A DNA stretch of 64,000 nt from Sphingomonas corticis. GTDB lineage: Bacteria; Pseudomonadota; Alphaproteobacteria; Sphingomonadales; Sphingomonadaceae. Location: the NCBI RefSeq assembly GCF_012035195.1, contig NZ_JAAVJH010000007.1:62001-126000 (forward strand). Direction: 5' to 3'. Made by a program: the position numbers and the translations under genes. The stretch's first letter is position 1; every line of letters begins with the position of its first letter. The notes under the pieces are model-generated. The model searched no databases, was not told the origin of the DNA, and saw only the letters and a list, made by a program, of their open reading frames with translations. Below are positions 32,054 through 49,967 of this stretch, in pieces.

Positions 32054-33546
32054 CCGCGCCGCCGGTCCGCGAGCTGGTGATCGTCGGCGGCGGCACCGCC
32101 GGCTGGATGATGGCCGCCGCCGCCGCTTTGTACCTCTCCGACGGCACGCGCCGCATCACGCTGGTCGAGAGCGAGACGATCGGCACCGTGGGCGTCGGCG
32201 AGGCGACGATCCCGCCGATCCGGGACTTCAACGCGATGCTGGGCATCGACGAGCGCGAGTTCCTGCGTGCGACCGGCGGCACGTACAAGCTCGGCATCGC
32301 CTTCGACGGCTGGGGCGCGGCGGGCGAGACGTATGTCCACCCGTTCGGCCGCGCCGGGCACGACCTGAACGGCGTGGACTTCCACATGGCGTGGCTGAAG
32401 CATCGCGCGGCGACGGGCGTGGGCCCGCTCGGCGACTATTGGATGGCGGCGGTGGCCGCTCGCGACGCCCGCTTCGCGCATCCCGCTGCCGATCCGCGCA
32501 CGCCGCAGGGGCAGCTCGCCTACGCCTTCCACTTCGACGCGGGCCGCTACGCCGCCTTCCTGCGGGCGCGTGCCGAGGCGGGTGGCGTGGTGCGCGTCGA
32601 GGGCAAGGTTGCCGGCGTCGAGCGCGACGCGCGCGGCCATGTCGCGGCGCTGCTGCTGGAGGACGGACGCCGCGTCGCCGGCGACCTGTTCGTCGACTGT
32701 TCGGGCTTCCGCAGCCTGCTGCTGGGTGCGGAGATGGGCGTGCCCTTCGTCGACTGGAGCCACTGGCTGCCGTGCGACCGCGCGGTGGCCGTGGCGTCGG
32801 AGCGGCGCGACCCGCTGATGCCGCTGACGCGCGCCACGGCGCATGACGCGGGCTGGCGCTGGCGCATCCCGCTGCAGCACCGCACCGGCAACGGGCTGGT
32901 CTATGCCAGCGCGCACCTCTCCGACGACGCGGCCGCCGCGCGCCTGCTCGCCGGGCTGGACGCCCCCGCGACGGACGATCCGCGCGTCATCCGCTTCGCC
33001 ACCGGCCGGCACGAACGCGCGTGGGAGGGGAATGTGGTGGCGCTGGGCCTTGCCGGCGGGTTCCTGGAGCCGTTGGAATCGACCAGCATCCACCTGATCC
33101 AGTCGGGCATCTCGAAGCTGCTGGCGCTTTTCCCCGACACCGGCTTCGCGCCGGTGCTGCGCGACGAGTACAACCGGCTGATGGCCGCGCAATACGACGC
33201 GGTGCGCGACTTCGTTATCCTGCACTATCACGCCAACGGGCGGGTGGGCGAGCCGTTTTGGGATGCGCTGCGCGACATGGCGCTGCCCGACACGCTCGCC
33301 ACCCGCCTGGCGCTGTTCCGCGAGAAGGGACGCGTGCTACGCTACGACGACGACCTGTTCTCGATCGCCAGCTGGGTGGCGGTGCTGGTCGGCCAGGGCG
33401 TGCTGCCCAAGGGGTACGACCCGATGGTGGACGCGCTGGACGACGCCGCGGTGGCCGCGGCGCTGCGGCGCTGGCGCGCGGACTATGCCGGGGCCGCGGC
33501 GGCGATGCCCGACCATGCGGCCTATGTGGCGCGCATGGTGGGCTGA
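32050..33546 (+). CDS. Flavin-dependent tryptophan halogenase-like protein 3
   Basis: A 498-residue family member with complete motifs: VGGGTAGWMM, GVGEATIPPI, TYKLGIAF (Lys80), GWRWRIP and LEPLESTS (Glu343). It shares the DWSHWLPCDRAVAV and LQHRTGNG segments with the protein at 28875. As in related sphingomonad loci, it sits with a TonB receptor and polysaccharide hydrolases rather than a natural-product cluster, so its role in glycan use is unknown; brominating activity on indoles is known for a relative from such a setting. It is the last gene of the run and faces the glycan operon across 4 nt. Confidence 0.87.
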   Translation: MTAPPVRELVIVGGGTAGWMMAAAAALYLSDGTRRITLVESETIGTVGVGEATIPPIRDFNAMLGIDEREFLRATGGTYKLGIAFDGWGAAGETYVHPFGRAGHDLNGVDFHMAWLKHRAATGVGPLGDYWMAAVAARDARFAHPAADPRTPQGQLAYAFHFDAGRYAAFLRARAEAGGVVRVEGKVAGVERDARGHVAALLLEDGRRVAGDLFVDCSGFRSLLLGAEMGVPFVDWSHWLPCDRAVAVASERRDPLMPLTRATAHDAGWRWRIPLQHRTGNGLVYASAHLSDDAAAARLLAGLDAPATDDPRVIRFATGRHERAWEGNVVALGLAGGFLEPLESTSIHLIQSGISKLLALFPDTGFAPVLRDEYNRLMAAQYDAVRDFVILHYHANGRVGEPFWDALRDMALPDTLATRLALFREKGRVLRYDDDLFSIASWVAVLVGQGVLPKGYDPMVDALDDAAVAAALRRWRADYAGAAAAMPDHAAYVARMVG

Positions 33547-33550
33547 ACCG

Positions 33551-35617
33551 CTACGCCGCGGCGGCGACGCGCGGCGCCGCCAGTTCCCCGGCGAACCATG
33601 CGCAGGTCCGCTCCAGCCCCTCGCGCAGGTCGACGCGCGGTTCCCAGCCGAGCAGCGCCGCCGCGCGGCTGATGTCGGGACGGCGGCGGCGCGGATCGTC
33701 GACGGGCAGCGGACGATATTCCACCCCGGCGCCGCTGCCGGTCAGCTCGACGATGTGGCCCAGCAGCTCGTTGACCGTCATCTCGTTGGGATTGCCGAGG
33801 TTGATCGGCTCCATCCCGTCGATGTCGCTCTCCATCAACCGCATCAGGCCGTCGACCAGGTCGGAGACGTAGCAGAAGCTGCGCGTCTGCGTGCCGTCGC
33901 CGTAGATGGTGATCGGCCGGCCCGACAGCGCCTGGCAGATCAGGTTGGAGACGACGCGCCCGTCGTCGGGATGCATCTGCGGCCCGTAGGTGTTGAAGAT
34001 GCGCGCCACGCGCACGTCGGCCCGGCCGGTGCGCGCGAAGTCGAACGTCATCGCCTCCGCCGCGCGCTTGCCCTCGTCGTAGCAGGCACGCGGGCCGGTG
34101 CAGTTCACGAAGCCGCGGTAATCCTCGCGCTGTGGGTGGATCTCCGGATCGCCATAGACCTCGCTGGTCGACGTCAGCAGGAAGCGCGCGCCCGCCTGCT
34201 CGGCCAGGCGCAGCAGATGGTCGGTGCCGACGACGCAGGTCAGCATCGTATGCTCCGGATCCTCCTGATATTGCGGCGGCGACGCGGCGCAGGCGAGATT
34301 GTAGACGCGCGTGAACCGGCCGGCGCGCGAGGTGATCGACGCGGGCAGCGGATCGACCACGTCGGCCTTCACGAACTCGAAGCGCGGGTGGCCTTCCAGC
34401 AGCTTCAGGTTCGACGCGCGCGCGGTCTGCAGATTGTCGAGGCACACCACATGGTCGCCCCGCGCCAGGAGCGCCGCGCACAGGTGCGAGCCGATGAACC
34501 CGGCTCCCCCCGCGACCAGGGTGAGCGGTGCATTCTGGTTCTTCATGCGCTTCCCCTCCGTTCTCTCGTTCTGCATCGCCTCGGCGAGGTGCGCCTCCAG
34601 CTCCGCCGCGCGGTGGTGCGCGGTGTGCGCGGCCAGCACGCGCGCGCGCGCCGCCTCGCCCACCGCGGCAGCGTCGCGTGACAGCGCGGCGAGCGTGTCC
34701 TCGCTCGTATCCGCCAGCACGATCTCGCTCTCCGGCGTCAGCAGCGTCTCGATCCCGTCCCAACGGTCGGACAGGATCGGCGTCCCGCACGCCGCCGCCT
34801 CGAACAGGCGGACCGACGGCGACCAGCCCGCCGCGATCATGTCCGCCCGCGTGACGTTCAGCGTCCAGCGCGAGGCGGAATAGAAGGCGGCGTGTTCGGC
34901 GGGCGGCAGATGCTCGATCCGCTCGACGTTGGCCGGCCAGTCGATCGTGTCGGGATATTGCGGCCCCGCCACGGCGAAGCGCTTTTCCGGCGCGCGGCGT
35001 GCCGGCTCGATCAGCAACCGTTCCAGCGTCGGCTGGCGATCGTCGCTGTAGGTGCCGAGGTAGGTGAGATCCCACTTCTTCCCGACCGGCAGCGGGCGAT
35101 ACGCCTCGGCATCGACGGAGCAGTAGAGCGCCCGCGCGCGCGGCGCGCCGAACTGCCGCTCGATCCGCTCCAGCGTCGGCCCGCCGGTGAAGGAGAGATA
35201 GACGTCGAAGCCGGGGATCACCTCCGCCGACACATATCTGGTATCGCCGCGCTCCAGCCGTGCGAGCGTGACGGGAGTGTCGATATCGTAGAAGGCGGTC
35301 GCCCCGCGCGCGTGCGCCTGGACGTAGCGCGCCACTTCGACGCCGTCGGGCACGTAGGAACCGACGATCACCGCGTCCGCCGCCGCGATCTCGCCGCGCC
35401 AGTCGTCCAGCGCGGCGAGCGTGCGGTAATAGGCGAGCCGGCAATAGGCCGGGTCGGAGAGGTCGCGGTGCGCGCCCGCGTACCAGGGCACCTCGCGCTC
35501 GAGGAACAGGATGTCGTGCCCGCGCGCGGCGAAGGCCGACAGCAGTGCGCGGAACGTGGTGGCGTGCCCGTTCCCCCATGAGGACCCGAGGCTGAGGCCG
35601 AGGACGACGATCTTCAT
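33551..35617 (-). CDS. CgeB-like glycosyltransferase fused to UDP-glucuronate decarboxylase
   Basis: A 688-residue two-domain protein. Residues 1-350 are a glycosyltransferase of the CgeB/GT-B type (MKIVVLGLSLGSSWGNGHAT; WSPSVRLFEAAACGTPILSD; DRWDGIETLL). Residues 358-688 are a complete short-chain nucleotide-sugar enzyme: LVAGGAGFIGSHLCAA, NLACAASPPQYQEDP, TSTSEVYGDP, and the catalytic pair Tyr513/Lys517 in GPRACYDEGKR, the signature of UDP-xylose synthase. Joining occurs at an internal ATG (34546) preceded by GGAGGGG, as if a former ribosome site remains, so the second domain might also be made separately. It probably makes UDP-xylose and uses it, or a related donor, for transfer. Confidence 0.85.
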   Translation of the reverse strand: MKIVVLGLSLGSSWGNGHATTFRALLSAFAARGHDILFLEREVPWYAGAHRDLSDPAYCRLAYYRTLAALDDWRGEIAAADAVIVGSYVPDGVEVARYVQAHARGATAFYDIDTPVTLARLERGDTRYVSAEVIPGFDVYLSFTGGPTLERIERQFGAPRARALYCSVDAEAYRPLPVGKKWDLTYLGTYSDDRQPTLERLLIEPARRAPEKRFAVAGPQYPDTIDWPANVERIEHLPPAEHAAFYSASRWTLNVTRADMIAAGWSPSVRLFEAAACGTPILSDRWDGIETLLTPESEIVLADTSEDTLAALSRDAAAVGEAARARVLAAHTAHHRAAELEAHLAEAMQNERTEGKRMKNQNAPLTLVAGGAGFIGSHLCAALLARGDHVVCLDNLQTARASNLKLLEGHPRFEFVKADVVDPLPASITSRAGRFTRVYNLACAASPPQYQEDPEHTMLTCVVGTDHLLRLAEQAGARFLLTSTSEVYGDPEIHPQREDYRGFVNCTGPRACYDEGKRAAEAMTFDFARTGRADVRVARIFNTYGPQMHPDDGRVVSNLICQALSGRPITIYGDGTQTRSFCYVSDLVDGLMRLMESDIDGMEPINLGNPNEMTVNELLGHIVELTGSGAGVEYRPLPVDDPRRRRPDISRAAALLGWEPRVDLREGLERTCAWFAGELAAPRVAAAA

Positions 35618-36702
35618 GCCGCTTCCCTCCCCTGCGCCGCCCGATCGCGAAGGATCGCGTCCACCTGCACCCCGCGCAGTTCATAGGTGTGCTCGGCCAG
35701 CACGCGCCGCAGCGCCGCCTCGCCGATCGCCTGTGCCCGCTCGCCCGTCAGCGCCGCGAGGTGGTCCGCCACGTCCTGCCCGTCGCGCGCGACCAGCACC
35801 TCCTCGTCGGGAACGAGGAACTGCTCGATCCCCTCCCACGCGTCGGTGATGAGGCACGCCGCCGCGCCTGCCGCCTCGAACACGCGGGTCGCGGGGGAGA
35901 AGCCGACATTCGCCATGCTGTCGCGCGCCACGTTGAGCACGGCGCGCGGCGTGCAGTTGAAGGCGTTGTGCTCGCGCGTGCCGACATGGCCGATGTCGCG
36001 CACGTTCGCGGGCATCGCCTTGTCGTGCCAGCCGTTGCCGCCGATCAGGAACGCGGCGTCGGGCGCGTCGGCGGCGGCGCGCAGGAAGAACTCCTCCACC
36101 CGCGCCTCGCGGTCCGGCAGGCGGTTGCCGAGGAAAGCGAGGTCGCAGGCGAAGCGCGGGTCGGGCGCGACCGGATGGTGAGTCTCCGGATCGAGCGCGT
36201 TGTAGACCGGCACGCACTCGCGCGCGCCGAACCCTTCGTAGGCGTTCACGACGGGCGGCCCGCCGCCGTAGGTGAGCACCATGTCGAGATCGGGCAACGC
36301 GCGGCGTACCGGATGGTCCGCGTCCCCCCGCATCTCGTCCAGCGTGGCGGCGGCGTCGACATCCCAGAACAGCTTCAGCGCCCCCGGCCGCGCCTGCGCG
36401 ATCACGCCGTCCAGCAGCTCGGCATCGAACACGCCCACGCCGTTCGCCTTGACGACCACGTCCGCCGCGCGTGCCTCCGCCAGCACGCCGCGCATCGCCT
36501 CAACAGTGGCGGGATAGACGACGACCTTCGCCCATTCCGGCGGGTCAATGTCGCGATGCTGCTGTCTGTCGAAGGCGTCGGGTTCGTAAAAGGTGATCTG
36601 ATGCCCGTGCGCCGCCAGCGCCTTCAGGATGCCGCGGTAATAGGTCGCGGCGCCGTTCCAGTAGGAGGAGAGGAGGCTCGATCCGTAGAAGGCGATCTTC
36701 AT
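35614..36702 (-). CDS. CgeB-like glycosyltransferase
   Basis: A 362-residue GT-B fold protein of the CgeB (spore-maturation-like) family. MKIAFYGSSLLSSYWNGAAT matches the opening of its two neighbours. LTYGGGPPVVNAYEGFGARE, the ACDLAFLGNRLPDREARVEE stretch and FSPATRVFEAAGAAACLITD followed by AWEGIEQFLVPDEE, are the nucleotide-binding C-domain features. Donor and acceptor cannot be read. It overlaps both neighbours by 4 nt, and with them forms a set of three paralogous transferases likely adding successive sugars. Confidence 0.8.
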   Translation of the reverse strand: MKIAFYGSSLLSSYWNGAATYYRGILKALAAHGHQITFYEPDAFDRQQHRDIDPPEWAKVVVYPATVEAMRGVLAEARAADVVVKANGVGVFDAELLDGVIAQARPGALKLFWDVDAAATLDEMRGDADHPVRRALPDLDMVLTYGGGPPVVNAYEGFGARECVPVYNALDPETHHPVAPDPRFACDLAFLGNRLPDREARVEEFFLRAAADAPDAAFLIGGNGWHDKAMPANVRDIGHVGTREHNAFNCTPRAVLNVARDSMANVGFSPATRVFEAAGAAACLITDAWEGIEQFLVPDEEVLVARDGQDVADHLAALTGERAQAIGEAALRRVLAEHTYELRGVQVDAILRDRAAQGREAA

Positions 36703-37811
36703 GCGGCATCCTTGGTCGCAAGGGGGAGGTCGAGCTGGCGCGCGATCGCTTCCAGCTCGTCGACGCGGTGGGCGCAGCTATGCCGCGCGCGAACGGTTTC
36801 GAGGCCGCTGGCGACCAGCGCGGCACGAAGGGCCGCATCGTCGCGCAGCGCGGCGAGGTGGCGGGCCATCTCCGCGCCGTCGCGCGCGACGAGATAGTCG
36901 GTGCCGGGGCGGAACAGCCCCTCGGCATCGTCCCACGGCGCGGAGACCAGCGGGATCCCGCAGGCCAGCGCCTCGAAGACGCGGATCGTTGGGATACCGG
37001 GGAGGATCGTCGAGTAATAGCGCCGCGGCACGTGGACGGTGGCGAGGTGGCGCGCGAAGATGTCCGGCGCACCGGCGTTGGGCGCCCAGCCGTGATAGCG
37101 CGCACCGTACCGCGCCAGCATGGCCTTCGCCTCGTCCGGGTAGCGCACGCCGTAGATGTCGAGCGGCAGCGCGGCGTCACGCGCGGGGGCGAGCAGGAAG
37201 CGCTCGATCTCCTCGGTCCGTTCGCCGTCGCCCCAATTGCCGATCCACACGATCCCCTCGCGCGGACCCTCGCGCTCCGGCGGGTGGAAGCGGGTGAGGT
37301 CCGCGGCCTCGTGCCAGGTCCACACGCGGTCGCCCCAGCCCCAGCCGCGGTACACCTCCGACAGCGTCTCGCCGAACGCCAGCACGCCGTCGTAGGCGGA
37401 CAGGTCGTAGGCGCGCATCTCCTCCGGTGCGCTGACGGCGCGGTGGTGCGTGTCGTGGAACAGCAGGCGGAAGCGCCCGCCGCCGGCGCGCAGGCGGCCG
37501 ATGCGCGCGACCAGATCGTGGTCGTTCCACTCGTGCACGATGACCAGCTCGGCGTCGCCGATCAGCGCGGCCACGTCCGCGTCCGCGGCGAAGGTGGTGG
37601 ACGACAGGTCCGGATAGGCCCCGCGCCACGCCTCCAGCCCTGCCTCGCCGTGGTCGGTCAGCAGGTTCTGGAGGCTCCAGGCGCCTTCCGGCTCGTAGAC
37701 GCGCACGTCGTGGCCGCGCCGCTGCAGTTCGCGCATCACCCCGCGCAGGAAGTGGGCGTTGCCGTGGTTCCAGCAGGACGCGAGACTGTGCGTGAAATAG
37801 GCGATCCTCAT
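36699..37811 (-). CDS. CgeB-like glycosyltransferase
   Basis: A 370-residue third CgeB-like transferase. MRIAYFTHSLASCWNHGNAH, FLRGVMRELQRRGHDVRVYE, then the C-domain block IVWIGNWGDGERTEEIERFL and ILPGIPTIRVFEALACGIPL with VSAPWDDAEGLFRPGTDYLV. These follow the same plan as the proteins at 35614 and 33551, with moderate identity, so they are old paralogues rather than recent copies. Cytoplasmic; no membrane segment. It is coupled by 4-nt overlaps to the GT4 gene upstream and the other transferase downstream. Confidence 0.8.
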   Translation of the reverse strand: MRIAYFTHSLASCWNHGNAHFLRGVMRELQRRGHDVRVYEPEGAWSLQNLLTDHGEAGLEAWRGAYPDLSSTTFAADADVAALIGDAELVIVHEWNDHDLVARIGRLRAGGGRFRLLFHDTHHRAVSAPEEMRAYDLSAYDGVLAFGETLSEVYRGWGWGDRVWTWHEAADLTRFHPPEREGPREGIVWIGNWGDGERTEEIERFLLAPARDAALPLDIYGVRYPDEAKAMLARYGARYHGWAPNAGAPDIFARHLATVHVPRRYYSTILPGIPTIRVFEALACGIPLVSAPWDDAEGLFRPGTDYLVARDGAEMARHLAALRDDAALRAALVASGLETVRARHSCAHRVDELEAIARQLDLPLATKDAA

Positions 37812-38887
37812 GCCGCCACCTCGCGCATCGCCGGCGCCGCGACGCGCGCGTACAGACGCGCCATCGCGCGCGCGGTGGCGGTGGGCGTGTAGCGCGCCGC
37901 CCGTGCGGCGGCGGCGTCGCCGAGCCGGCACGCCTCGGCGGGATCGTCCGCCAGCCGCGCGATCGCATCGGCCCAGTGCGCCGGATCCTCGCCGGCGACG
38001 AACAGCGCCGCATCCTGCCACAGCTCGCGGAACACCGGCATGTCGGCGAGCACCAGCGGGCATCCCGCCCCCGCGGCCTCGAGCACGGCGAGGCCGAACG
38101 GCTCGAACCGCGCCGCGGACACGAACATCGGCCGTGCGGACAACCGCTCGGCCAGCGCCGCGGCGCCGAGCGTACCGAGGTGCGCCAGATGCGCGGGCGC
38201 CACCGTCTCGCCGTGGGGCGCGATCAGCGGTCCGGCCGCCTCGAAGGCGAAGGGCAGCCGTGCCGCCACCGCATCGAGCAGCGGCGTCGCCTTTGCGGCA
38301 TCCCACAGCCGTCCCGCGGTGAAGGCGCGGCGCGCGGGCGTCGCGCCAGATTTCGGCGGCACCGCGCGGCCGTTGTGCACGGCGACGGGATCGACCGGCA
38401 GACCGTAGCGCCGCCGCACCGCCGCGCCGTAGGCGGCGCTCGGCACCACCACCGCGTCGGCGCGGCGCAGGCCGTCGGCCGCCAGGGCGGCGTGCCAGGC
38501 GTATCGCGCGGGCAGCGGCTCGCCCGGGCGCGTCGCCTCCCACCAGGTCGCGATCGCGCCGTGATCCACCGCCACCACCGGCACGTCGAATGTGGCCGCG
38601 GCGGCCAGCGCGGGCGAGTTCAGCTGCACGACCTCGGCACGCCCGGATCGCGCCAGGTCAACGATCGCCGCGGCCGCGGCGCGGACCGCCGCGGCGTCCT
38701 CCGCCAGCCAGTCGAGCGGCAGCCCGGTGGCGATCACGCGCACGCCCGCCACCTCGTCGACCGATCCCGGCCCCATGTGCGCGATCGTGACGTCGTGGTC
38801 GCCCGACAGCGCAACGGCGAGGTCGGTGGCATATTGCCACACCCCGCCGACCGAATCCGCCGTCATCAGGACGCGGCGCTTCCTCAT
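37808..38887 (-). CDS. Glycosyltransferase family 4 protein
   Basis: A 359-residue GT-B transferase. MRKRRVLMTADSVGGVWQYA, TDLAVALSGDHDV is the typical N-terminus of a retaining GT4 enzyme. ADAVVVPSAAYGAAVRRRYG, PVAVHNGRAVPPKSGATPAR and MFVSAARFEPFGLAVLEAAG with AGCPLVLADMPVFRE give the E-x7-E donor-site region (FEPFGLAVLE). It probably acts after the CgeB-like enzymes or starts the chain; order cannot be known. Overlaps with neighbours (ATGA) place it in the same operon. Confidence 0.85.
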   Translation of the reverse strand: MRKRRVLMTADSVGGVWQYATDLAVALSGDHDVTIAHMGPGSVDEVAGVRVIATGLPLDWLAEDAAAVRAAAAAIVDLARSGRAEVVQLNSPALAAAATFDVPVVAVDHGAIATWWEATRPGEPLPARYAWHAALAADGLRRADAVVVPSAAYGAAVRRRYGLPVDPVAVHNGRAVPPKSGATPARRAFTAGRLWDAAKATPLLDAVAARLPFAFEAAGPLIAPHGETVAPAHLAHLGTLGAAALAERLSARPMFVSAARFEPFGLAVLEAAGAGCPLVLADMPVFRELWQDAALFVAGEDPAHWADAIARLADDPAEACRLGDAAAARAARYTPTATARAMARLYARVAAPAMREVAA

Positions 38888-39945
38888 CGCGCCGCGGCCC
38901 GCACCGCCGTCGCGCCGGGCAACGACAGGCCGCGCTCCGCCGCCAGCCACTGCGCCAGCGCGGCCACGCCGTCGCGCCAGTCCACCGCGGTACCAAGGCC
39001 GAGCGCGCCGCGCACGGCGCGCGTGTCCGCGACGAAGTAGCGCTGGTCGCCCGCCCGCCAATCCTCGAACGCGATGTCGGGCGCCCCGCCCGTCAGCTCG
39101 CCGATATACGCCAGCAGCGTGCGCAGGCTGACGGCATTGCCCGCCCCGCCGCCCAGGTTCAGCGCGCGCCCCGCCACCCGATCGATCCGCCGCCACGCCG
39201 CGAGATACGCGTCGACCGCATCGGAGACGTCGAGGATGTCGCGCACCTGATGCCCGTCGCCGTACAGCGTGATGCGCTCGCCCGTCAGCGCGCGGATCAG
39301 GAAGTGCGCGACCCACCCCTGGTCCTCGGTCCCCATCTGCCGCTGGCCGTAGATGCAGCTCATCCGCAGCACCGCCGCGGGCACGCCGTAGCTGCGCGCG
39401 TAATCGAGCACATACTGGTCCGCCGCCCCCTTGGAGCAGCCGTAGGGCGTGTGGAAGTCGAGCGGCCGGTCCTCGCCGATGCCATGCGCGCGCAGGCCCG
39501 GGTCGGCGGGCAGATAGCCCGCGTCGGTCGCGACGAAGGCGACATCGGCGAGGTCGCCGTAGACCTTGTTGGTCGAGGCGAAGACGACGGGCGTGGTCGC
39601 GCCCTTCGCGCGGATCGCCTCCAGCAGGTTGAACGTGCCGAGGATGTTGATCGTCAGATCGTCGCGCGGATCGGCCAGGCTGGTCGTCACCGCCACCTGC
39701 GCCGCCATGTGGAACACCGCGTCGGTATCCGCCACCGCGCGCCGCAGCGCGTCCTCGTCGCGGATGTCGGCGACGACGTCGACGATGCGCGCGCCGTGCC
39801 GGTCCTTCAGCCACGCGAGGTTCCGCTCCACGCCGGCGCGGGACAGCGCGTCGTAGACGATGACGTCGTGCCCCTCCCCCGCCAGCCGGTCGGCGATGTT
39901 CGACCCGATGAAGCCGGCCCCGCCGGTGACGAGGACCGTGCTCAC
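38884..39945 (-). CDS. NAD-dependent sugar epimerase, CDP-tyvelose 2-epimerase-like
   Basis: A 353-residue short-chain dehydrogenase of the nucleotide-sugar epimerase group. GGAGFIGSNIADRL is the NAD motif; FASTNKVYGDL, PYGCSKGAADQYVLDYARSY (Tyr-x3-Lys as YGCSK) and SCIYGQRQMGTEDQGWVAHF match the CDP-paratose/tyvelose 2-epimerase branch. The substrate here may differ. The start is GTG 39945, overlapping the stop of the gene before (GTGA). It supplies a modified nucleotide sugar to the transferases downstream. Confidence 0.82.
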   Translation of the reverse strand: MSTVLVTGGAGFIGSNIADRLAGEGHDVIVYDALSRAGVERNLAWLKDRHGARIVDVVADIRDEDALRRAVADTDAVFHMAAQVAVTTSLADPRDDLTINILGTFNLLEAIRAKGATTPVVFASTNKVYGDLADVAFVATDAGYLPADPGLRAHGIGEDRPLDFHTPYGCSKGAADQYVLDYARSYGVPAAVLRMSCIYGQRQMGTEDQGWVAHFLIRALTGERITLYGDGHQVRDILDVSDAVDAYLAAWRRIDRVAGRALNLGGGAGNAVSLRTLLAYIGELTGGAPDIAFEDWRAGDQRYFVADTRAVRGALGLGTAVDWRDGVAALAQWLAAERGLSLPGATAVRAAAR

Positions 39946-41057
39946 GCGACCAGGCCCCGGCGTTCCAGCTCGGCCCGCGCCTCGCCGACGCGATCCACCG
40001 CGGTCTGCTGGCCCACCCAGTCGGCGAGGACGGCGAGCCCCTCCTCGAAATCCTGCCGCGGCGCGAAGTCGATCGTCGCGCCCGCGCGGGCGATGTCGCC
40101 GAAGCAGTGGCGGATGTCGCCGATCCGCGCCTTGCCGACCACCTCGGGCGCGGCGTCGTTGCGCCCCATCGCGCGCGCCAGCGCCTCCGCCACCTCGGTC
40201 ACGGAACGATCGCGGCCGGACCCGATGTTCAGCGTCTCGCCCACCGCACGCGGATCGACCAGCGCGTCGCAGAAGGCGCGCGCCACGTCGGACACGTGGA
40301 CGAAGTCGCGACGCTGCTGCCCGTCCTCGAACACCATCGGCCGCTGACCGTTGAGCAGCCGCGAGGCGAAGATCGCGAGGACGCCGGTATAGGGATTGGA
40401 GAGCGCCTGCCCCGGCCCGTAGACGTTGAAGAGGCGCAGGCACGTCGTCTCGATGCCGTAGGGCGCGCCCATGATGTGCGTGGTGCGCTCCTGCACGTAT
40501 TTGTTGAGCGCGTAGATCGAGGCGAGCGTCGGCCGCTTCGTCTCGGGGGTCGGCACCGGCACCAGCGGTCGGCCCGCCGTATCGACCGGATCCCACACCG
40601 CCTGCCCGTCGCGCACCGTGCCGCGCTCGGCATCCTCTACCAGATTGCCGTCGGCGTCCCGGTACAACCCCTCACCGTAGATGCTCATCGAAGACGCGGT
40701 GACGACGCGGCGCACCGGGCGGTCGATCAGGCGTTCGAAGAGCACGGCGGTGCCGACATCGTTGGTCGAGGTGTAGCGCTCCACCTCGTACATCGATTGG
40801 CCGACGCCCACTTCCGCGGCGAGGTGGACGACCGCATCGACACCTTCGAGCGCGCGCGCCACGGCGTCGCCGTCGCGCACGTCGCCGCGGATCAGCTCGA
40901 CCTCGTCGTTCAGCATCGCCGATCCGTCCACGTGGCCATGCACCTGTTCGATCAGCGCATCGAGCGCGCGCACGCGATGGCCGCGGCGCAGCAGTTCCTG
41001 GCATACGGAACGACCGATGAAGCCGGCCCCGCCGGTCACGAGAATATGTTCGGCCAC
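39942..41057 (-). CDS. NAD-dependent epimerase, dTDP-L-rhamnose 4-epimerase-like
   Basis: A 371-residue epimerase/dehydratase. MAEHILVTGGAGFIGRSVCQ gives the NAD site; DALIEQVHGHVDGSAML is a feature of the dTDP-L-rhamnose 4-epimerase branch; ASSMSIYGEG and SIYALNKYVQE (Tyr/Lys) form the active site; RLFNVYGPGQALSNPYTGVL closes the substrate pocket. The true substrate is not proven. It is the first gene of the six-gene minus-strand glycan operon; the near-perfect dyad at 41082-41112 lies 25 nt ahead of its ATG. Confidence 0.82.
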   Translation of the reverse strand: MAEHILVTGGAGFIGRSVCQELLRRGHRVRALDALIEQVHGHVDGSAMLNDEVELIRGDVRDGDAVARALEGVDAVVHLAAEVGVGQSMYEVERYTSTNDVGTAVLFERLIDRPVRRVVTASSMSIYGEGLYRDADGNLVEDAERGTVRDGQAVWDPVDTAGRPLVPVPTPETKRPTLASIYALNKYVQERTTHIMGAPYGIETTCLRLFNVYGPGQALSNPYTGVLAIFASRLLNGQRPMVFEDGQQRRDFVHVSDVARAFCDALVDPRAVGETLNIGSGRDRSVTEVAEALARAMGRNDAAPEVVGKARIGDIRHCFGDIARAGATIDFAPRQDFEEGLAVLADWVGQQTAVDRVGEARAELERRGLVA

Positions 41058-41243: not shown

Positions 41244-41831
41244 ATGACGAACACGATCCTGCTGGCGCGGCACGGCACGCACGATGAAGTCGGACGGGTA
41301 TTGAGCGGCCGGTCAGAGATCGCGCTGAACGTCGCCGGCCGCGAAGAGGCGGAGGCGATGGCGCGCACACTGCGCGACGTGCCGCTCGGCTCGATCCACG
41401 CCAGCCCCCGCCGCCGCACGATGGAGACCGCACTGCCGGTGGCGCACGAACACGGACTTTCGGTGGTTCGGGCCGCGGCCCTGGACGAAATCGATTTCGG
41501 CCGCTTCACCGGCCTTGCCTTCGACGCGCTGGAGAGCGACGCCGACTGGCGCGCGTGGAACGAGCACCGGGGCACCGCGCGCTGCCCGGGAGGCGAGACG
41601 ATGGCGGAGGTGATCGCGCGCGCGGGCGCCTACCTGCGCGCGTTGCCCGTTTCGGAGGCGCCGATCCTGTGCGTGACGCACTGCGACGTGATCCGCGGGC
41701 TGGTGGCGGACGCGCGCGGCGACGGGCTGGACCGCCTGTACGCGCTACCCTGCGATCCCGGCTCGCTGACCGAAGTGGTGGTGACCGGCGAGCGCCTGTG
41801 CGTCGTGGCGCTCAACCGGCGGCCAGGCTGA
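41244..41831 (+). CDS. Histidine phosphatase (phosphoglycerate mutase-like)
   Basis: A 195-residue protein of the histidine phosphatase superfamily. The RHG motif LLARHGTHDEVGR at the N-terminus holds the phospho-accepting His; IHASPRRRTMETA gives the second Arg; DEIDFGRFTGLAFDAL and CVTHCDVIRGLVAD carry the remaining catalytic Glu and His. Its substrate could be a sugar phosphate of the glycan pathway, but that is inferred from position only. ATG 41244 gives MTNTILLARHG; an upstream in-frame ATG lies in the promoter region. Its 3' end overlaps the convergent DUF6165 gene by 20 nt. Confidence 0.85.
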   Translation: MTNTILLARHGTHDEVGRVLSGRSEIALNVAGREEAEAMARTLRDVPLGSIHASPRRRTMETALPVAHEHGLSVVRAAALDEIDFGRFTGLAFDALESDADWRAWNEHRGTARCPGGETMAEVIARAGAYLRALPVSEAPILCVTHCDVIRGLVADARGDGLDRLYALPCDPGSLTEVVVTGERLCVVALNRRPG

Positions 41832-43132: not shown

Positions 43133-43291
43133 GATGGCGCCAAAGCCGCGAGGGCAGTGGCGGTTCCGTCGCCCGGTCAAGGAACGTAGCCCGGATCCGA
43201 ACGTTCGCGAAACGATGATCCAGCTTCAATAAAGCTTGGATTGACCTGTATTAATTGCCAACGATCGCCGATCGGGCGAAACCCGGGGGAC

Positions 43292-44110
43292 ATGAGTGTG
43301 ACCGCCGAACCCACGCCGCACGACGACGCGATGGTCCATGCGCTGCGCCAGCGCGTGGGCGCACTCGGCCCGTGGTTCCACAACATCGATCTCGGCGGGG
43401 TGAAGACTGCGCCCGACCATTTTCTGGGCGATTATCCCGCGGAGAAGTATGCGCGCTTCGCCGATGCGGTCCCGCGCGACCTGACGGGCAAGAGCGTGCT
43501 CGACATCGGCTGCAACGCCGGCTTCTACTCGGTGGAGATGAAGCGCCGCGGCGCCGCGCGGGTGGTCGGCATCGACAGCGACGACCGCTACCTCGCGCAG
43601 GCGCGGCTGGCGATCGACACGCTCGGCTTCGACGGCGTCGAGTTCCGCAACCTCTCCGTCTACGACGTGGGCGCGCTGGGCGAGCGGTTCGACCTCGTGA
43701 TCTTCATGGGCGTGCTCTATCACCTGCGCCACCCGCTGCTGGCGATGGATCTGATCCGCGAGCACGTCGCGGGCGACCTGATGCTCTTCCAGACGATGCA
43801 GCAGGGATCGACCGAGGTGGAGGCGGTGCCGGAGGATCATCCCTTCTACGCGCCCGGCACCTTCGTGCCCCCGGCCTATTTCGACGCTCCCGGCTATCCG
43901 AAGATGCACTTCATCGAGCGGCGCTTCGCCGGCGACTGGACCAATTGGTGGGCGCCCAATGCCGCCTGCACCCAGGCGATGCTGCGCGCGGCCGGGTTCG
44001 CCGTGGAGCCCACGGCGGAAGCCGACGTCTACCTGTGCCGCACCGCGCCGGTTCCGTTCGCGAAATTCGGGCCGGCCGCGGTGTATCCTGCGAAAGGGAA
44101 TCTTGCGTGA
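43292..44110 (+). CDS. SAM-dependent methyltransferase, TIGR04290-like
   Basis: A 272-residue class I methyltransferase. GKSVLDIGCNAGFYSVEMKR is the SAM motif I, with VVGIDSDDRYLAQARLAID, FDLVIFMGVLYHLRHPLLAM and a C-terminal segment rich in aromatic residues (FIERRFAGDWTNWWAPNAAC). The arrangement and the GPWFHNIDL opening resemble the tRNA-cmo5U-like methyltransferases grouped as TIGR04290 (Rta_06860 family), which sit in glycan clusters. GGGGGAC precedes ATG 43292. The stop overlaps the next gene's GTG. It probably methylates a sugar or glycan intermediate. Confidence 0.8.
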   Translation: MSVTAEPTPHDDAMVHALRQRVGALGPWFHNIDLGGVKTAPDHFLGDYPAEKYARFADAVPRDLTGKSVLDIGCNAGFYSVEMKRRGAARVVGIDSDDRYLAQARLAIDTLGFDGVEFRNLSVYDVGALGERFDLVIFMGVLYHLRHPLLAMDLIREHVAGDLMLFQTMQQGSTEVEAVPEDHPFYAPGTFVPPAYFDAPGYPKMHFIERRFAGDWTNWWAPNAACTQAMLRAAGFAVEPTAEADVYLCRTAPVPFAKFGPAAVYPAKGNLA

Positions 44111-45027
44111 TCGAAGCGGCGATGATCTGGAACGAGCCGAACAACAAGTCGCACTGGGACCCCGAACTCGATCCCGACTGGTCGATCTACGCCGACACCG
44201 TCATCCGCGCCGGCGCCGCCATTCGCGCGATGAACCCCGCGGTCACCCGCGTGCTCGGCGGCATGTCGCCGATCGACCCGCAATGGGTGAACCGGATGCG
44301 CGGGCACGGCGCGCTGAACGCGGTGGACGTGGTCGCCGTCCACGGCTTCCCGCTGGACTGGAACCTGTGGTCGATCCACGACTGGCCGGCGAAGATCGCG
44401 GAGATCGAGGCGGTGGTTCCCGACAAGCCGGTGTGGGTGACCGAGGTCGGCGTCGGCAGCTTCGGTGCGGAGGAGGTGCAGGTATTCGGCGTGGAGAAGA
44501 CCGCCGAGCTGCTCGTCGGCCGCGTACCCAACATCTACTGGTATTCCCTCTTCGACCTGCCGCACGAATGGGGTGCGACGACGCGGCACCGCGAGGCGGA
44601 AGGATCGAGCTACTATCGCCACTTCTACATGGGGCTGATCCGCGCCGACGGCACGCCCAAGCCGTCGCTTGAAGCGTACGCCCGCCACGCCGCGGACATG
44701 GGGCTGATGCAGTGGTTCCATTTCGAGGATCCGCGGCTGGACGACGCCGTCGCGTGGATGCGGCGGCTCGGGGTGCGCAAGCTGCGCACGGGCCTCAGTT
44801 GGGCGGACCGCCTCCGGCCGGGCGCGCTCGACTGGTTCGACCGGATGATGGGCGCGCTGGAGGAGTTCGACGTCACCGTCACCTTCTGCTTCACGCCCGA
44901 GCATCTCGGCGTCCAGCCGCACCACACCAGTCCGGCGCGCGAGCCGCAGCTGTTCGCCGACTTCTGTGCTGAGATGATCGACCGCTACGCGCCGGCGCCC
45001 GCGCTTCCCCTCGTCGCCACCGCGTGA
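44107..45027 (+). CDS. Xylosidase-like clan A glycosidase with permuted barrel halves
   Basis: A 306-residue protein with clan A TIM-barrel glycosidase motifs in an unusual order. It opens directly on the acid/base strand (MIWNEPNNKSHW, Glu10) and then the nucleophile strand (PVWVTEVGVGSFG, Glu113), which in GH39 or GH5 enzymes follow three earlier strands. Those missing parts appear at the end: QWFHFEDPRLDDAVAWMRRL, GVRKLRTGLSWAD, FDVTVTFCFTPEHLG and TSPAREPQLFADFCAEMIDR (residues 202-292). It has no signal peptide. GTG 44107 overlaps the methyltransferase stop; ATG 44122 is the only close alternative. Relatives are annotated beta-xylosidase; activity is unproven. Confidence 0.7.
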   Translation: MIEAAMIWNEPNNKSHWDPELDPDWSIYADTVIRAGAAIRAMNPAVTRVLGGMSPIDPQWVNRMRGHGALNAVDVVAVHGFPLDWNLWSIHDWPAKIAEIEAVVPDKPVWVTEVGVGSFGAEEVQVFGVEKTAELLVGRVPNIYWYSLFDLPHEWGATTRHREAEGSSYYRHFYMGLIRADGTPKPSLEAYARHAADMGLMQWFHFEDPRLDDAVAWMRRLGVRKLRTGLSWADRLRPGALDWFDRMMGALEEFDVTVTFCFTPEHLGVQPHHTSPAREPQLFADFCAEMIDRYAPAPALPLVATA

Positions 45028-45610: not shown

Positions 45611-46567
45611 ATGCGCGCCGCCATTCTTTCCGCCCCCGGGCAGATCGATCTCGCCGATGCGCCGCTACCCGAGCCCGCCGCGGGCGAGGTGCGGCTGCGG
45701 CTGGAGGGCTGCGGCGTGTGCGCCTCCAACCTGGAACCGTGGCAGGGACTGGAATGGATGACCTACCCCGGCGAAGCCGGCGGGCTGGGGCACGAGGGCT
45801 GGGGCGTGGTCGACGCGCTCGGCGACGGCGTGGAGGGGCTGGCCCCCGGCGACCGCGTGGCGGCGCTGTCCACCCGCAGCCTCGCCGATTACGACGTGGC
45901 CGCCGCCGACATGGTGGCGAAGCTGCCCGCCGCGCTCGACGGGCACCCCTTCCCGGGCGAGCCGCTCGGCTGCGCCTTCAACATCTTCCGCCGCAGCGAC
46001 GTGCAGCCAGGGCAGACCGTGGCGATCGTCGGCATCGGCTTCCTGGGTGCGGTCCTCACGCGGCTGTGCACCGCCGCGGGGGCGCGGGTGATCGCCATCT
46101 CGCGCCGGCGGGAATCGCTCGACCTCGCGCGCCACTACGGCGCGGCGGAGACGATCGCGATGCACGATCATTACGAGATCATCGATCGCGTGAAGGCGCT
46201 GACCGGCGAGGCGATGTGCGAGCGCGTGATCGAGGCGGTGGGCAAGCAATGGCCGCTCGACCTCGCCGGCGAGCTGGTGGCGTTCGGCGGCCGGCTCGTC
46301 ATCGCCGGCTACCATCAGGACGGGCCGCGTCAGGTGTCGATGCAGATGTGGAACTGGAAGGGGATCGACGTCGCCAACGCGCACGAGCGCGATCCCGCGG
46401 TGCAGATGCGCGGCCTGCGCGAGGCGATCGAGTGGGTCGCCGACGGGCGGCTCGACCCCACGCCGCTCTACTCGCACCTTTATCCGCTGGAACGCCTCGG
46501 CGAGGCGCTGAACGCCACGCGCGACAAGCCGCAGGGCTTCGTCAAGGCCCTGGTGATGCTGTCGTGA
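45611..46567 (+). CDS. Zinc-type alcohol dehydrogenase-like (MDR) oxidoreductase
   Basis: A 318-residue medium-chain dehydrogenase. LRLEGCGVCASNLEPWQGLE holds the first zinc-ligand Cys, GGLGHEGWGVV the His-Glu pair, and VAIVGIGFLGAVLTRLCTAA is the GxGxxG nucleotide motif. The structural-zinc four-cysteine loop is absent, as in short members. Together with the Gfo/Idh/MocA gene directly following (GTGA overlap), it looks like a two-step sugar oxidoreduction unit such as a keto-sugar pathway. Substrate unknown. It starts after a 44-nt gap divergent from DUF1003. Confidence 0.82.
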   Translation: MRAAILSAPGQIDLADAPLPEPAAGEVRLRLEGCGVCASNLEPWQGLEWMTYPGEAGGLGHEGWGVVDALGDGVEGLAPGDRVAALSTRSLADYDVAAADMVAKLPAALDGHPFPGEPLGCAFNIFRRSDVQPGQTVAIVGIGFLGAVLTRLCTAAGARVIAISRRRESLDLARHYGAAETIAMHDHYEIIDRVKALTGEAMCERVIEAVGKQWPLDLAGELVAFGGRLVIAGYHQDGPRQVSMQMWNWKGIDVANAHERDPAVQMRGLREAIEWVADGRLDPTPLYSHLYPLERLGEALNATRDKPQGFVKALVMLS

Positions 46568-47553
46568 AGCCCGCATCCGCCAAGCCGCGTGTGGGATTCC
46601 TCGGCACCGGCTGGATCGGGCGGCACCGCATGGCGGGGATGCTGGCGACCGGTGCGATCGAGGCGGCGGCGGTGTGCGATCCCTCGCCCGACGGCATTGC
46701 CGAGGCGCGCGCGCTCGCACCCGACGCCGCGGTCGTCTCCTCGCTGGACGAGATGCTCGCGCTGGAACTGGACGGTGTCGTCATCGCGACGCCCAGCGCG
46801 CTCCACGCCGAACAGGCGATCCGCGCGCTCGACGCGGGCGCAGCCGTGTTCTGTCAGAAGCCGGTGGGGCGCACCGCGGCGGAAGTGGCGGCGGTGATCG
46901 CGGCGGCGCGGCGCAGCGACCGGCGGCTCGGCGTCGACCTGTCCTACCGCCACACCGCCGGCATGGCGGCCATCGCGCCGCTGGTGCAGGGCGGCGCGCT
47001 GGGGCGGGTGTTCGCGGTCGATCTCACTTTCCACAACGCCTACGGCCCAGACAAGCCGTGGTTTTACGACGCGGCGCAGTCGGGTGGCGGGTGCGTGATC
47101 GACCTGGGCGTCCACCTCGTCGACCTCGCGCTGTGGACGCTCGGCTTCCCGCCGGCGGACGGGGCGCACGCCGCGCTGCGTGCAGGCGGCGCGCCGCTCG
47201 CACCGGGCCAGGTGGAGGATTACGCCACCGCCGCCTTCCGCGCGGGCGACGTCGACGTGCGGCTCGCCTGTTCGTGGCGGCTCCACGCCGGGCAGGAAGC
47301 GGTGATCGAGGCGGCGTTCTACGGCACCAACGGCGGCGCCGCGCTACGCAACGTCGGCGGCAGCTTCTACGATTTCACCGCGCACCGCTTCGACGGTACC
47401 GGCACGACCGTGCTGGCGGACGGTCCCGACGAATGGGGTGCGCGCGCCGCCGCCGAGTGGGCGACGAGCCTTGCCGCCGATCCGCGCTACGATGCCGCGG
47501 CGGACGATTATGTCCGCTCGGCGCAGGTGCTCGACCTGATCTACGGCCGCTGA
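46564..47553 (+). CDS. Gfo/Idh/MocA family oxidoreductase
   Basis: A 329-residue NAD(P)-dependent sugar oxidoreductase. RVGFLGTGWIGRHRMAGMLA is the N-terminal dinucleotide site; FCQKPVGRTAAEVAAVI contains the conserved EKP-like Lys (here QKP, so Glu is replaced by Gln); GGGCVIDLGVHLVDLALWTL carries the catalytic D-x-x-x-H. Enzymes of this family oxidise or reduce hydroxyl or keto groups of sugars and inositols. GTG 46564 overlaps the stop of the dehydrogenase. It probably acts on the same intermediate as that enzyme. Confidence 0.87.
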   Translation: MKPASAKPRVGFLGTGWIGRHRMAGMLATGAIEAAAVCDPSPDGIAEARALAPDAAVVSSLDEMLALELDGVVIATPSALHAEQAIRALDAGAAVFCQKPVGRTAAEVAAVIAAARRSDRRLGVDLSYRHTAGMAAIAPLVQGGALGRVFAVDLTFHNAYGPDKPWFYDAAQSGGGCVIDLGVHLVDLALWTLGFPPADGAHAALRAGGAPLAPGQVEDYATAAFRAGDVDVRLACSWRLHAGQEAVIEAAFYGTNGGAALRNVGGSFYDFTAHRFDGTGTTVLADGPDEWGARAAAEWATSLAADPRYDAAADDYVRSAQVLDLIYGR

Positions 47554-47557
47554 CGCG

Positions 47558-48619
47558 ATGGCGTCCCATCCCCGGGTCGGCGTGCTGACCTTCCACCGCT
47601 CGATCAACTACGGCTCCTACTGGCAGGCGCGCTGCCTGGTGGAGGGGCTGCGCGCGCGTGGCTGCGATGCGGAACTGGTCGACCACCGCTCCGTCGCCGT
47701 GGAGCGGCGCGAGCTGCGCTGCGCGTTCCAGCCCGCGCTGCCGATCCGCACGCCGCGCGACCAGCATCCCGCGCTCGGCCGCAAGGCGCGCGCGCTGGAG
47801 GCGGCGGTCGATGCGCTGCCGCTGTCCGCCCCCTTCCCGCTCGACGATCCCGCCGTGATGCCGCGCTACGACACCGTCGTCGTCGGCAGCGACGAGGTGT
47901 GGAACTTCCGCCATCCCTGGTACGGTGGCCAGCCGCTGTTCTTCGGCGAGGGGTTGCGCGCCGACCGGCTCGTCTCCTACGCCGCCAGCTTCGGCAATCA
48001 CGATGCCGCGGATGGGCTGGACCAGGTCTCCGTCGCGCGGCTGCGGCGGTTCGCCGCGCTGTCGGTGCGCGACGACAATGCGCGTGACCTGCTGTCGGAG
48101 GCGCTGGGCGAGGTGCCGCCGCTGGTGCTCGATCCGTGCCTGCAATTCGCCGATGTGATCCCCACGGATACCGCGCCGGGCCGCTACCTGCTGCTCTACG
48201 GTCACAGCTTTCCCACCGGTTTCGCCGCTGCGGTGCGCCGATACGCCGACAAGGCCGGGCTGCCGATCGTCAGCGTCGGCTACGGCAATTCCATCGCCGA
48301 CCGGCAGCGGATCGACGCCGACCCCGCTGAGTTCGCGGCGCTGTTCGCCGGGGCGCACGCGGTGGCGACCAATTTCTTCCACGGTTGCGTCTTCGCGCTG
48401 CGCTTCGGCAAGCCGCTCGTCGCCGCCGCCATGCCCTACCGTCGCAACAAGCTGCGCGACCTCACGCGCAAGCTGGCCGTCGAGCACTGCCTCGTCGGTG
48501 AGGAGGCGGACGAAGCCACCGTCTCGGCGCGCCTGTCCGCCGCGCCGGAGGGCGTGGCGGAACGGCTGGTCGTGCTGCGCGCCGCCTCCACCCGCTACCT
48601 GGACGCCGCGCTTGGCTGA
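47558..48619 (+). CDS. Polysaccharide pyruvyl transferase family protein
   Basis: A 353-residue protein of the polysaccharide pyruvyl transferase (CsaB-like) family, which adds ketal-linked pyruvate to sugars of surface polymers. RVGVLTFHRSINYGSYWQAR at the start, VVVGSDEVWNFRHPWYGGQP, LVSYAASFGNH, VRDDNARDLL, LLLYGHSFPTGFA and TNFFHGCVFALRFGKPLV are family landmarks. It starts 4 nt after the Gfo/Idh/MocA stop. The adjacent F420-hydrogenase-beta-like gene is a frequent partner of such transferases in glycan loci. Confidence 0.85.
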   Translation: MASHPRVGVLTFHRSINYGSYWQARCLVEGLRARGCDAELVDHRSVAVERRELRCAFQPALPIRTPRDQHPALGRKARALEAAVDALPLSAPFPLDDPAVMPRYDTVVVGSDEVWNFRHPWYGGQPLFFGEGLRADRLVSYAASFGNHDAADGLDQVSVARLRRFAALSVRDDNARDLLSEALGEVPPLVLDPCLQFADVIPTDTAPGRYLLLYGHSFPTGFAAAVRRYADKAGLPIVSVGYGNSIADRQRIDADPAEFAALFAGAHAVATNFFHGCVFALRFGKPLVAAAMPYRRNKLRDLTRKLAVEHCLVGEEADEATVSARLSAAPEGVAERLVVLRAASTRYLDAALG

Positions 48620-49967
48620 CGCGCCGGCGCCCGCGGACATCGTCGCGTCCGGCCTGTGCATCGGCTGCGGCGGCTGCGCGACGGGGCCGACGCGGCGCAT
48701 GGCATGGGACCGCTACGGCCAGCGCAAGCCGACCGGCGCCGACCTGACCCTCGCCGATGCCGCGTTCGCGCGCACCTGCCCCTTCTCGCCCGCGGCGGGT
48801 GACGAGGACGCCATCGCGGCGGCGCGCTTTCCCGCTGCGCCGCACGTCGACGCGCGGCTCGGCCGGTACGAGGCCAATTACGTCGGCCATGTCGCCGAGG
48901 GCGAGTTCCGCGCGATCGGCAGCTCGGGCGGGATGGTCAGCTGGGTCGCGGCGGAGCTGCTGCGCACCGGCGCGGTGGACGGCGTTGCGCACGTCGTCCC
49001 GTCGACGGACGACCGCCTGTTCCGCTATCGCATCTCCCGCGACGCGGCCGCGATCGCGGAGGGCGCGCGCTCGCGCTACTATCCGGTCGATCTCGCCGAG
49101 GTGCTGGCGGCAATCCGCTCGACGCCCGGCCGCTACGCGATCGTCGGCGTTCCCTGCTTCATGAAGGCGGTGGCGCTGCAACGCGCCGAGGACCCGGTGC
49201 TGGCGGAGCGGATCACCCACCTCCTCGGCCTGTTCTGCGGCCACATGAAGAGCGCCGCCTTCGTGGACAGCTTCGCCTGGCAGCTGGACGCGCCGCGCGA
49301 GGAGGTGCGGGCGGTGGAATATCGCCGCAAGGACCCGGGCCGGCCGGCCAACTGGTACACTGCGCACCTCGACCTGGCCGACGGCAGCTCGCGCTCGCAG
49401 GACTGGTGGCATCTCGCCGACGGCGACTGGGGTGCGGGCTTCTTTCAGAACGCCGCCTGCAACTTCTGCGACGACGTGGTCGGCGAGTGCGCCGACATCT
49501 CTTTCGGCGACGCGTGGGTGGAGCCCTATTCCTCCGACGGGCGCGGTACCAACGTGGTCGTCGTCCGCTCGGCGGCGATCGCCGGGATGGTGGCGGACGC
49601 GGCGGCCGCGGGACGGCTGGCGCTGGAGGGCGTCGACTCGGACTTCATCGCGAACACCCAGGCCGCGGGCTTCCGGCAGCGGCGCGAAGGGCTGGCCTAT
49701 CGTTTGACGTGGGCGAAGCGTGGCATCCGCCCGCGCAAGCGGGTCGCGCCCGGCGCCGCCGGGCTGCCGTGGCGCCGCCGCGCGATCTACCGCATGCGCG
49801 CGGGCATCTCGCGCTGGAGCCACCGCATGGCGTGGGCGGCGAAGCGCCTCGGTGCGCCCGCATTGTACGTCCGCTGGGCACGCGCCAGCCTCTACCTCTA
49901 CCAGGCGCTGGCCTATCATCGCGGTCGCCTGGGCGAATGGCTGCGGCGCTTCGACGGGCGCGAGTAA
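48612..49967 (+). CDS. Coenzyme F420 hydrogenase/dehydrogenase beta-subunit-like protein
   Basis: A 451-residue protein with a ferredoxin-like cysteine cluster at the N-terminus (SGLCIGCGGCATG, Cys16, Cys19, Cys22), the FrhB N-domain (GEFRAIGSSGGMVSWVAAEL, LLRTGAVDGVAH) and C-domain (YAIVGVPCFMKAVALQRAED, LFCGHMKSAAF, NFCDDVVGECADISFGDAW). Such proteins beside pyruvyl transferases occur in bacteria that lack F420, so the name reflects fold only; a reductase or scaffold function in glycan assembly is inferred. The only reasonable start is TTG 48612, overlapping the previous gene by 8 nt. The C-terminal 100 residues are Arg-rich. Confidence 0.78.
   Translation: MADAPAPADIVASGLCIGCGGCATGPTRRMAWDRYGQRKPTGADLTLADAAFARTCPFSPAAGDEDAIAAARFPAAPHVDARLGRYEANYVGHVAEGEFRAIGSSGGMVSWVAAELLRTGAVDGVAHVVPSTDDRLFRYRISRDAAAIAEGARSRYYPVDLAEVLAAIRSTPGRYAIVGVPCFMKAVALQRAEDPVLAERITHLLGLFCGHMKSAAFVDSFAWQLDAPREEVRAVEYRRKDPGRPANWYTAHLDLADGSSRSQDWWHLADGDWGAGFFQNAACNFCDDVVGECADISFGDAWVEPYSSDGRGTNVVVVRSAAIAGMVADAAAAGRLALEGVDSDFIANTQAAGFRQRREGLAYRLTWAKRGIRPRKRVAPGAAGLPWRRRAIYRMRAGISRWSHRMAWAAKRLGAPALYVRWARASLYLYQALAYHRGRLGEWLRRFDGRE

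Follow-up and report, generated by a model that had tools for sequence, protein, structure and literature searches.

By sequence, the best solved relative of the glycosidase described here is PslG (GH39; PDB 4zn2, 5bx9) of the Pseudomonas aeruginosa Psl operon, which is likewise encoded inside a polysaccharide synthesis operon but differs in its ordinary strand order, in a solved chain about 110 residues longer and in being only remotely similar. A PslG study places most of the protein at the inner membrane and a smaller share in the periplasm, and names E165 and E276 as its key residues (PMC9075953). From the residue spacing we infer that these two are the same positions as the Glu pair of the PslG motifs WNEPN and WSTEWG. 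Natural circular permutants are known among carbohydrate enzymes: PMC10223318 names the GH70 glucansucrases and E. coli MalS (GH13_19), and the title of a reference in PMC10485009 gives the deacetylase domain (CE4) of PgaB as another. These share natural permutation with the protein examined here, but they are of other families with other chemistry. To our knowledge, none of the three belongs to clan GH-A, which ranks among the largest groups of sugar-cleaving enzymes and whose hallmark is an acid/base Asn-Glu where strand 4 ends and a nucleophilic Glu where strand 7 ends. No natural permutant of this clan was named in the open-access titles and beginnings of abstracts searched, a scope from which subscription journals mostly fall out.

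A second counterpart, RLEG_RS30775 on pR132503 of Rhizobium leguminosarum, is annotated only as an NAD-dependent epimerase/dehydratase family protein and carries a glycosidase (GH) domain in front of a CDP-tyvelose-2-epimerase-like SDR (epi2). Both parts of the permuted protein match it at about 31% identity, and the catalytic motifs are the same. Its cluster also resembles the one described below in containing a further epimerase gene (epi1), glycosyltransferases, a UDP-glucuronate decarboxylase and a TIGR04290 methyltransferase, the order being Gfo/Idh, dehydrogenase, epi1, GH-epi2 fusion, glycosyltransferases, UDP-glucuronate decarboxylase and methyltransferase. It differs, however, in its ordinary strand order, in the fusion to the epimerase and in that the GH does not adjoin the methyltransferase.

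The gene and the order of its two parts

In the window (the whole stretch of Sphingomonas corticis DNA analysed, 64,000 nucleotides), the gene for a circularly permuted GH-A-type glycosidase lies at 44107..45027 (+), directly behind a TIGR04290 family methyltransferase gene (43292..44110, +; 360.4 bits, cut-off 300). It has a GTG start and a protein-coding part of 44107-45024, and its 306-residue translation has the N-terminus VIEAAMIWNEPNN / VIEAAMIWNEPNNKSHW. The GTG overlaps the stop of the methyltransferase gene by 4 nt and is preceded by a Shine-Dalgarno-like AAAGGGA (44093..44099, +), read by eye. No export signal was seen on the protein by eye, and within its own genome the gene itself was the single match at E 1 or better. 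A sequence-only reading had proposed swapped barrel halves from Glu10, from WVTEVG with Glu113, and from GVRKLRTGLSWAD, FDVTVTFCFTPEHLG and FADFCAEMIDRY in the last third, and all of these landmarks are present.

A hidden N-terminal part, or a frameshift, was considered and ruled out, because similarity starts at residue 1 or 2 in 95 loci (the start comparison covered 95 of 106 loci, with 11 skipped that matched on the minus strand). The missing upstream part in another frame that would have spoken against swapped halves was thus not found, given also the 4-nt overlap and the frames of L081 and L084, which are closed directly before the start; that of L018 is closed one codon earlier. In L058, L061 and L076 the codon at the start position of the window protein is not a start codon, so the true start must lie slightly upstream there.

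Alignments, model and rotation scan assign residues 1-190 (44107..44676, +) to strands 4-8 of an ordinary barrel, and residues 197-306 (44695..45024, +) correspond to ordinary strands 1-3 plus a variable tail. Similarity to PslG is weak throughout. Residues 3-192 match PslG 132-326 (E 9.7e-4, or 2.1e-5 with a profile), and residues 204-295 align to PslG 28-129 with 0.9 bits, which is not significant alone; in a copy with the parts swapped, one match covers positions 13-300 of the copy (E 2.8e-5). GH39-type beta-xylosidases gave weaker matches than PslG, over about 80 residues. Much stronger similarity exists in genomes of the same class, 6 of 385 having a frame that matches both parts in ordinary order, with E values down to 2.5e-25 and 7.3e-11. 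In one of them (G212), residues 3-194 match at E 2.5e-25 and residues 198-295 at E 1.8e-10, in reversed order, and identity of both parts to ordinary-order GH domains is about 30-37%. That ordinary-order relatives significantly match both parts in reverse upholds the swapped halves of the sequence-only reading.

With a profile built from seven ordinary domains, the native window protein was found as two swapped pieces of 95.1 and 52.9 bits. When all 306 rotations of the protein were scanned, rotation 192 gave one piece of 151.2 bits spanning model positions 3-286 of 294, rotations near 192 likewise gave a single nearly full-length piece, and three shuffled copies of the window protein gave no positive score against this profile. 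Reciprocally, three of four ordinary domains became one long match to the permuted-family profile once rotated; the fourth, L113, did not, perhaps due to its segment having been cut about 20 residues longer. In pairwise alignments, the C-terminal part runs out at residue 295 (RYA), the point from which strand 4 follows in the ordinary domain, and the N-terminal part resumes 2-3 residues on at residue 2 (L113) or, in other relatives, some residues on at residue 7. Both parts are thus homologous to one contiguous domain but swapped, with the old ends joined and a single cut made elsewhere. On these alignments the protein almost certainly arose by natural circular permutation of a clan GH-A-type glycosidase.

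Active-site residues and the predicted barrel

The expected acid/base, Glu10 of WNEPN on strand 4 (codon 44134..44136, +), aligns with WNEPN of PslG, and the expected nucleophile, Glu113 of WVTEVG on strand 7 (44443..44445, +), aligns with WSTEWG. The expected active-site Arg of strand 2, Arg227 (44785..44787, +), lies in the C-terminal part, so that a working pocket would need both parts of the chain. All 118 distinct permuted proteins retain these three residues along with Asn9, His79 and Trp145, and both catalytic Glu, the Asn preceding the first and the Arg aligned to Arg227 are invariant in the seven ordinary-order relatives aligned. Using strand numbers from the alignment to the ordinary form, the Asn9-Glu10 pair follows the strand at residues 2-7 and Glu113 falls within that at 109-117, as in clan GH-A, and the predicted structure supplies the eight strands of a (beta/alpha)8 barrel, the whole chain aligning on complete barrels. 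The strands, however, run 4-8 and then 1-3 instead of 1-8. The protein carries the catalytic signature and predicted fold of clan GH-A without its strand order.

Family assignment is less clear-cut. Pfam recognized only the N-terminal part, with Glyco_hydro_cc (PF11790, which we take to be CAZy family GH128) over residues 3-123 at 24.6 bits (cut-off 21); the match covers profile positions 67-184 of 237, or 63-184 after swapping, and is thus not full-length. No GH39 model was listed in the Pfam result for the permuted protein, an NCBIfam search with it gave no match, and no Pfam model matched three ordinary-order relatives. Database records label such proteins as glycosyl hydrolase, beta-xylosidase or hypothetical protein.

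Judged by these residues, the permuted barrel is probably catalytically active, though we hold this with less assurance than the permutation. An alternative is that the permuted barrel no longer catalyses a reaction and instead binds or scaffolds a partner, such as the methyltransferase or the epimerase to which its ordinary-order relatives are fused. The apparent lack of an export signal, the soluble synthetic partners and the gene overlap with the methyltransferase would all suit such a subunit, but the invariance of both catalytic Glu and of the Asn before Glu10, in 118 of 118 permuted and 7 of 7 aligned ordinary proteins, argues against it, and we consider it unlikely.

AlphaFold2, given 57 sequences (the window protein and 56 others, 77-88% identical to it), predicted one closed eight-stranded barrel with a mean pLDDT of 81.8 and a pTM of 0.85. 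The predicted strands are at residues 2-7, 47-50, 75-81, 109-117, 143-148, 199-201, 225-231 and 255-261, and by alignment to the ordinary form they would be numbered 4-5-6-7-8-1-2-3 in chain order. Two loops have pLDDT below 50, one at residues 11-15, adjoining Glu10, and one at 158-170. In sequential comparison by VIA-align, residues 3..295 of the model were placed on a 228-residue designed barrel, 7uek (214 aligned, Z 13.3, rmsd 3.5), and 232 residues on 9fyl_A (Z 13.3, rmsd 3.3). Sequential Foldseek matches were weak, the best having E 1.0e-4 and a TM-score of 0.45. The 50 matches listed for each of these sequential comparisons with the PDB include no PslG and no chain with GH39 in its name; those listed were GH84, GH20, aldolases and designed barrels, as expected if a rotated barrel is aligned in order, with one endoglucanase among them (6t9g_B, rank 44 in VIA-align, Z 12.1). 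That PslG and GH39 are missing from these lists is not evidence in itself.

The sequence order alone would also allow an exchange of half-barrels, with the half domains of two chains pairing into a swapped dimer as the active form, and each of the two parts can indeed be matched separately. This arrangement is nevertheless very unlikely. The model closes within one chain, although the prediction was given a single chain only, VIA-align covers the whole barrel in one chain, and about six residues (193-198), an ordinary loop length, hold the parts together by joining helix 8 (186-192) to strand 1 (199-201), so pairing between subunits is not needed. In the model, residues 1-190 supply five of the eight strands and do not form a full barrel by themselves, and the structure prediction that the sequence-only reading had called for supports permutation, since the closed barrel is built from the whole chain. 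Going by the model, closure of a complete barrel by one chain is highly probable.

Distribution and gene neighbourhood

A contig scan found 437 relatives among 444 candidate stretches, the best 80 of these being 76-89% identical. In genome samples that overlap and include the window's own genome, matches occurred in 26 of 199 genomes of the family, all in permuted order (E up to 1e-5), in 14 of 385 genomes of the class (8 permuted and 6 ordinary; E up to 1e-6) and in 16 of 398 genomes of the phylum (12 permuted, 2 ordinary and 2 weak partial matches). Among 72,556 plasmid records 147 matched, the match reaching 80% or more of the query length in 99, and phage records held no match to the permuted GH. 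The loci compared, some of which overlap, comprise 136 permuted, 21 ordinary and 6 with one part only, or 118 distinct permuted proteins (the window's own included) and 9 distinct ordinary-order ones. The permuted proteins are spread across several alphaproteobacterial families and have the same order in all 118 cases, so that the check on homologues called for by the sequence-only reading also came out in favour of permutation. No tandem or partly permuted form was seen among these loci. A chance fusion or remnant, in which a deletion between tandem copies fused the tail of one glycosidase gene to the head of a second and left no working barrel, is one possible route to a permutant and would fit the lack of an intermediate among the loci compared, but such a remnant would decay, and the retention of the order and of six active-site-type residues in 118 of 118 proteins of several alphaproteobacterial families makes it extremely improbable.

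A tree of 101 of the 118 distinct permuted and 8 of the 9 distinct ordinary proteins places the two labels on opposite sides of one very long branch (support 100/100), although its root is arbitrary and its bootstrap not settled, and for these reasons it says little on how the permutation came about. It left out 17 permuted proteins that did not fit the cutting pattern, several of them among the most divergent, and the Xanthomonas one, whose match is interrupted. The latter comes from a Xanthomonas sacchari plasmid (L129:12004-12845), where the match of the GH-epimerase homologue spans more than one reading frame; its GH part looks interrupted, or the record is in error. The permuted and ordinary forms differ at about 65% of their sequence, which together with the long branch leaves the route between them to inference.

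Upstream of the permuted gene the window carries a histidine phosphatase gene (41244..41831, +) and, on the minus strand, epi1 (39942..41057), an NAD-dependent epimerase gene that is a neighbour in both cluster types. Epi2 (38884..39918, -, 5' end approximate) is unfused here, its best solved match being CDP-tyvelose 2-epimerase (E 1.3e-74). The stretch 33551..38890 (-) holds four glycosyltransferase genes, of which Pfam identified three and synteny the fourth, together with another NAD-dependent epimerase/dehydratase gene, whose syntenic counterpart in R. leguminosarum is a UDP-glucuronate decarboxylase gene. Downstream are genes for a Zn-dependent dehydrogenase and a Gfo/Idh/MocA oxidoreductase (45611..47553, +), for which the highest-scoring NCBIfam models are inositol-type dehydrogenases, every one of them scoring far below its cut-off. 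At the cluster end, pyruvyl-transferase-like and F420-hydrogenase-beta-like genes stand side by side (47558-49967, +), each of them present in 26 of 68 related loci. At 28800-33546, to judge by eye, two proteins resembling flavin-dependent tryptophan halogenases flank a probable GH9-type glycosidase. No paper was found on this gene combination, nor any that uses TIGR04290 as a term.

Gene neighbours were counted in 81 permuted loci (68 of the 80 named-genome loci, those longer than 15.5 kb, plus L127 and L144-L155) and 8 ordinary ones; flank lengths differ, the loci share descent, and the counts of the three SDR genes may confound one another. The methyltransferase adjoins the GH in 77 of 81 permuted loci and in none of the 8 ordinary ones, and the gene immediately behind the GH is epi2 in 7 of 8 ordinary loci and in none of the 81 permuted ones. 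Unlike the permuted loci, the ordinary ones had no histidine phosphatase or inositol-3-phosphate synthase gene nearby (0/8 for each, against 63/81 and 42/81, respectively). The synthase gene (for example L015:8941-10062, L127:13230-14333 and L153:9102-10205) occurs in 10 of the 13 more diverse permuted loci (L127, L144-L155) and was identified by Pfam PF01658 in five examples checked (E 2.5e-34 or better); that of the window's genome is on another contig.

All seven ordinary-order proteins that were read have a GH domain of about 290 residues followed by the epimerase, the annotated R. leguminosarum protein having 680 residues and the stop-to-stop frames of two class genomes 703 and 708. The two cluster types thus differ in their GH, one having an ordinary domain fused to epi2 and the other a permuted, separate protein. 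TIGR04290 is found in 16 of 385 class genomes, and all 14 with either GH form are among those 16. This coupling is the main reason to think that the permuted and ordinary forms do the same kind of work. The other two genomes (G268 and G334, 82-83% complete) gave no match to the ordinary-domain profile at E 0.01, in a search that had no positive control. One genome, G542, has the permuted gene and also a second cluster (L161), in which a partial GH match, detected for strands 4-8 only, is in the ordinary position before epi2.

Upstream of the methyltransferase, at 43181..43205 (+), lies GGAAC-N16-CGTT, a pattern that we take to be the promoter motif of EcfG (general stress response). In the window alone this stricter CGTT pattern is not significant, with 3 matches against 1.04 expected and 8 of 100 shuffles as high. 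In 25 of 78 loci, among them that of the window, GGAAC-N15-18-YGTT lies no more than 250 nt ahead of the methyltransferase, whereas single-base shuffles predict 0.4. As the motif was not found in the other 53 and the loci are related by descent, we propose control by the general stress sigma factor for the window locus and its close relatives only.

Proposed origin and role

We consider it very likely, overall, that the gene encodes a closed, one-chain permuted (beta/alpha)8 barrel, which would derive from a GH-epimerase fusion and probably acts as a cytosolic enzyme in glycan synthesis. The chain would run from strand 4 to just past helix 3, with an ordinary short loop bridging the former N and C termini, and Glu10 and Glu113 of the N-terminal part would meet Arg227 of the C-terminal part in a single barrel. 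As to origin, the GH domain may have been lost from a GH-epimerase fusion and re-established as a separate, permuted gene. In the cytosol the enzyme would work with the TIGR04290 methyltransferase, the epimerases and the glycosyltransferases to make a glycan or glycoside, possibly trimming or transferring a sugar on an intermediate by the usual two-Glu retaining chemistry. Any given choice of substrate is doubtful at best; that the cluster product is an inositol-containing glycoside is a guess from the neighbour genes.

It is also conceivable, but improbable, that the GH changed its job after leaving the epimerase fusion. The permuted GH-A enzyme would then have joined a module with the methyltransferase, the histidine phosphatase and the inositol-3-phosphate synthase, as a cytosolic transglycosidase or trimming enzyme on an inositol-containing glycoside, under general stress control in the relatives of the window. 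If this were true, the permutation would have opened a new chain end beside the acid/base Glu, altering the pocket or the partner.

Pfam expects one order and sees the N-terminal part only, and the records carry various labels, so similar permutants may be missed. The permuted and ordinary forms occur in matching clusters of related bacteria and thus make natural pairs, which allow one to test how permutation affects folding, stability and catalysis. Each pair is a natural test of how far a fold can be rewired while keeping its active site, and the permuted GH gives a biochemical handle on the cluster that TIGR04290 marks.
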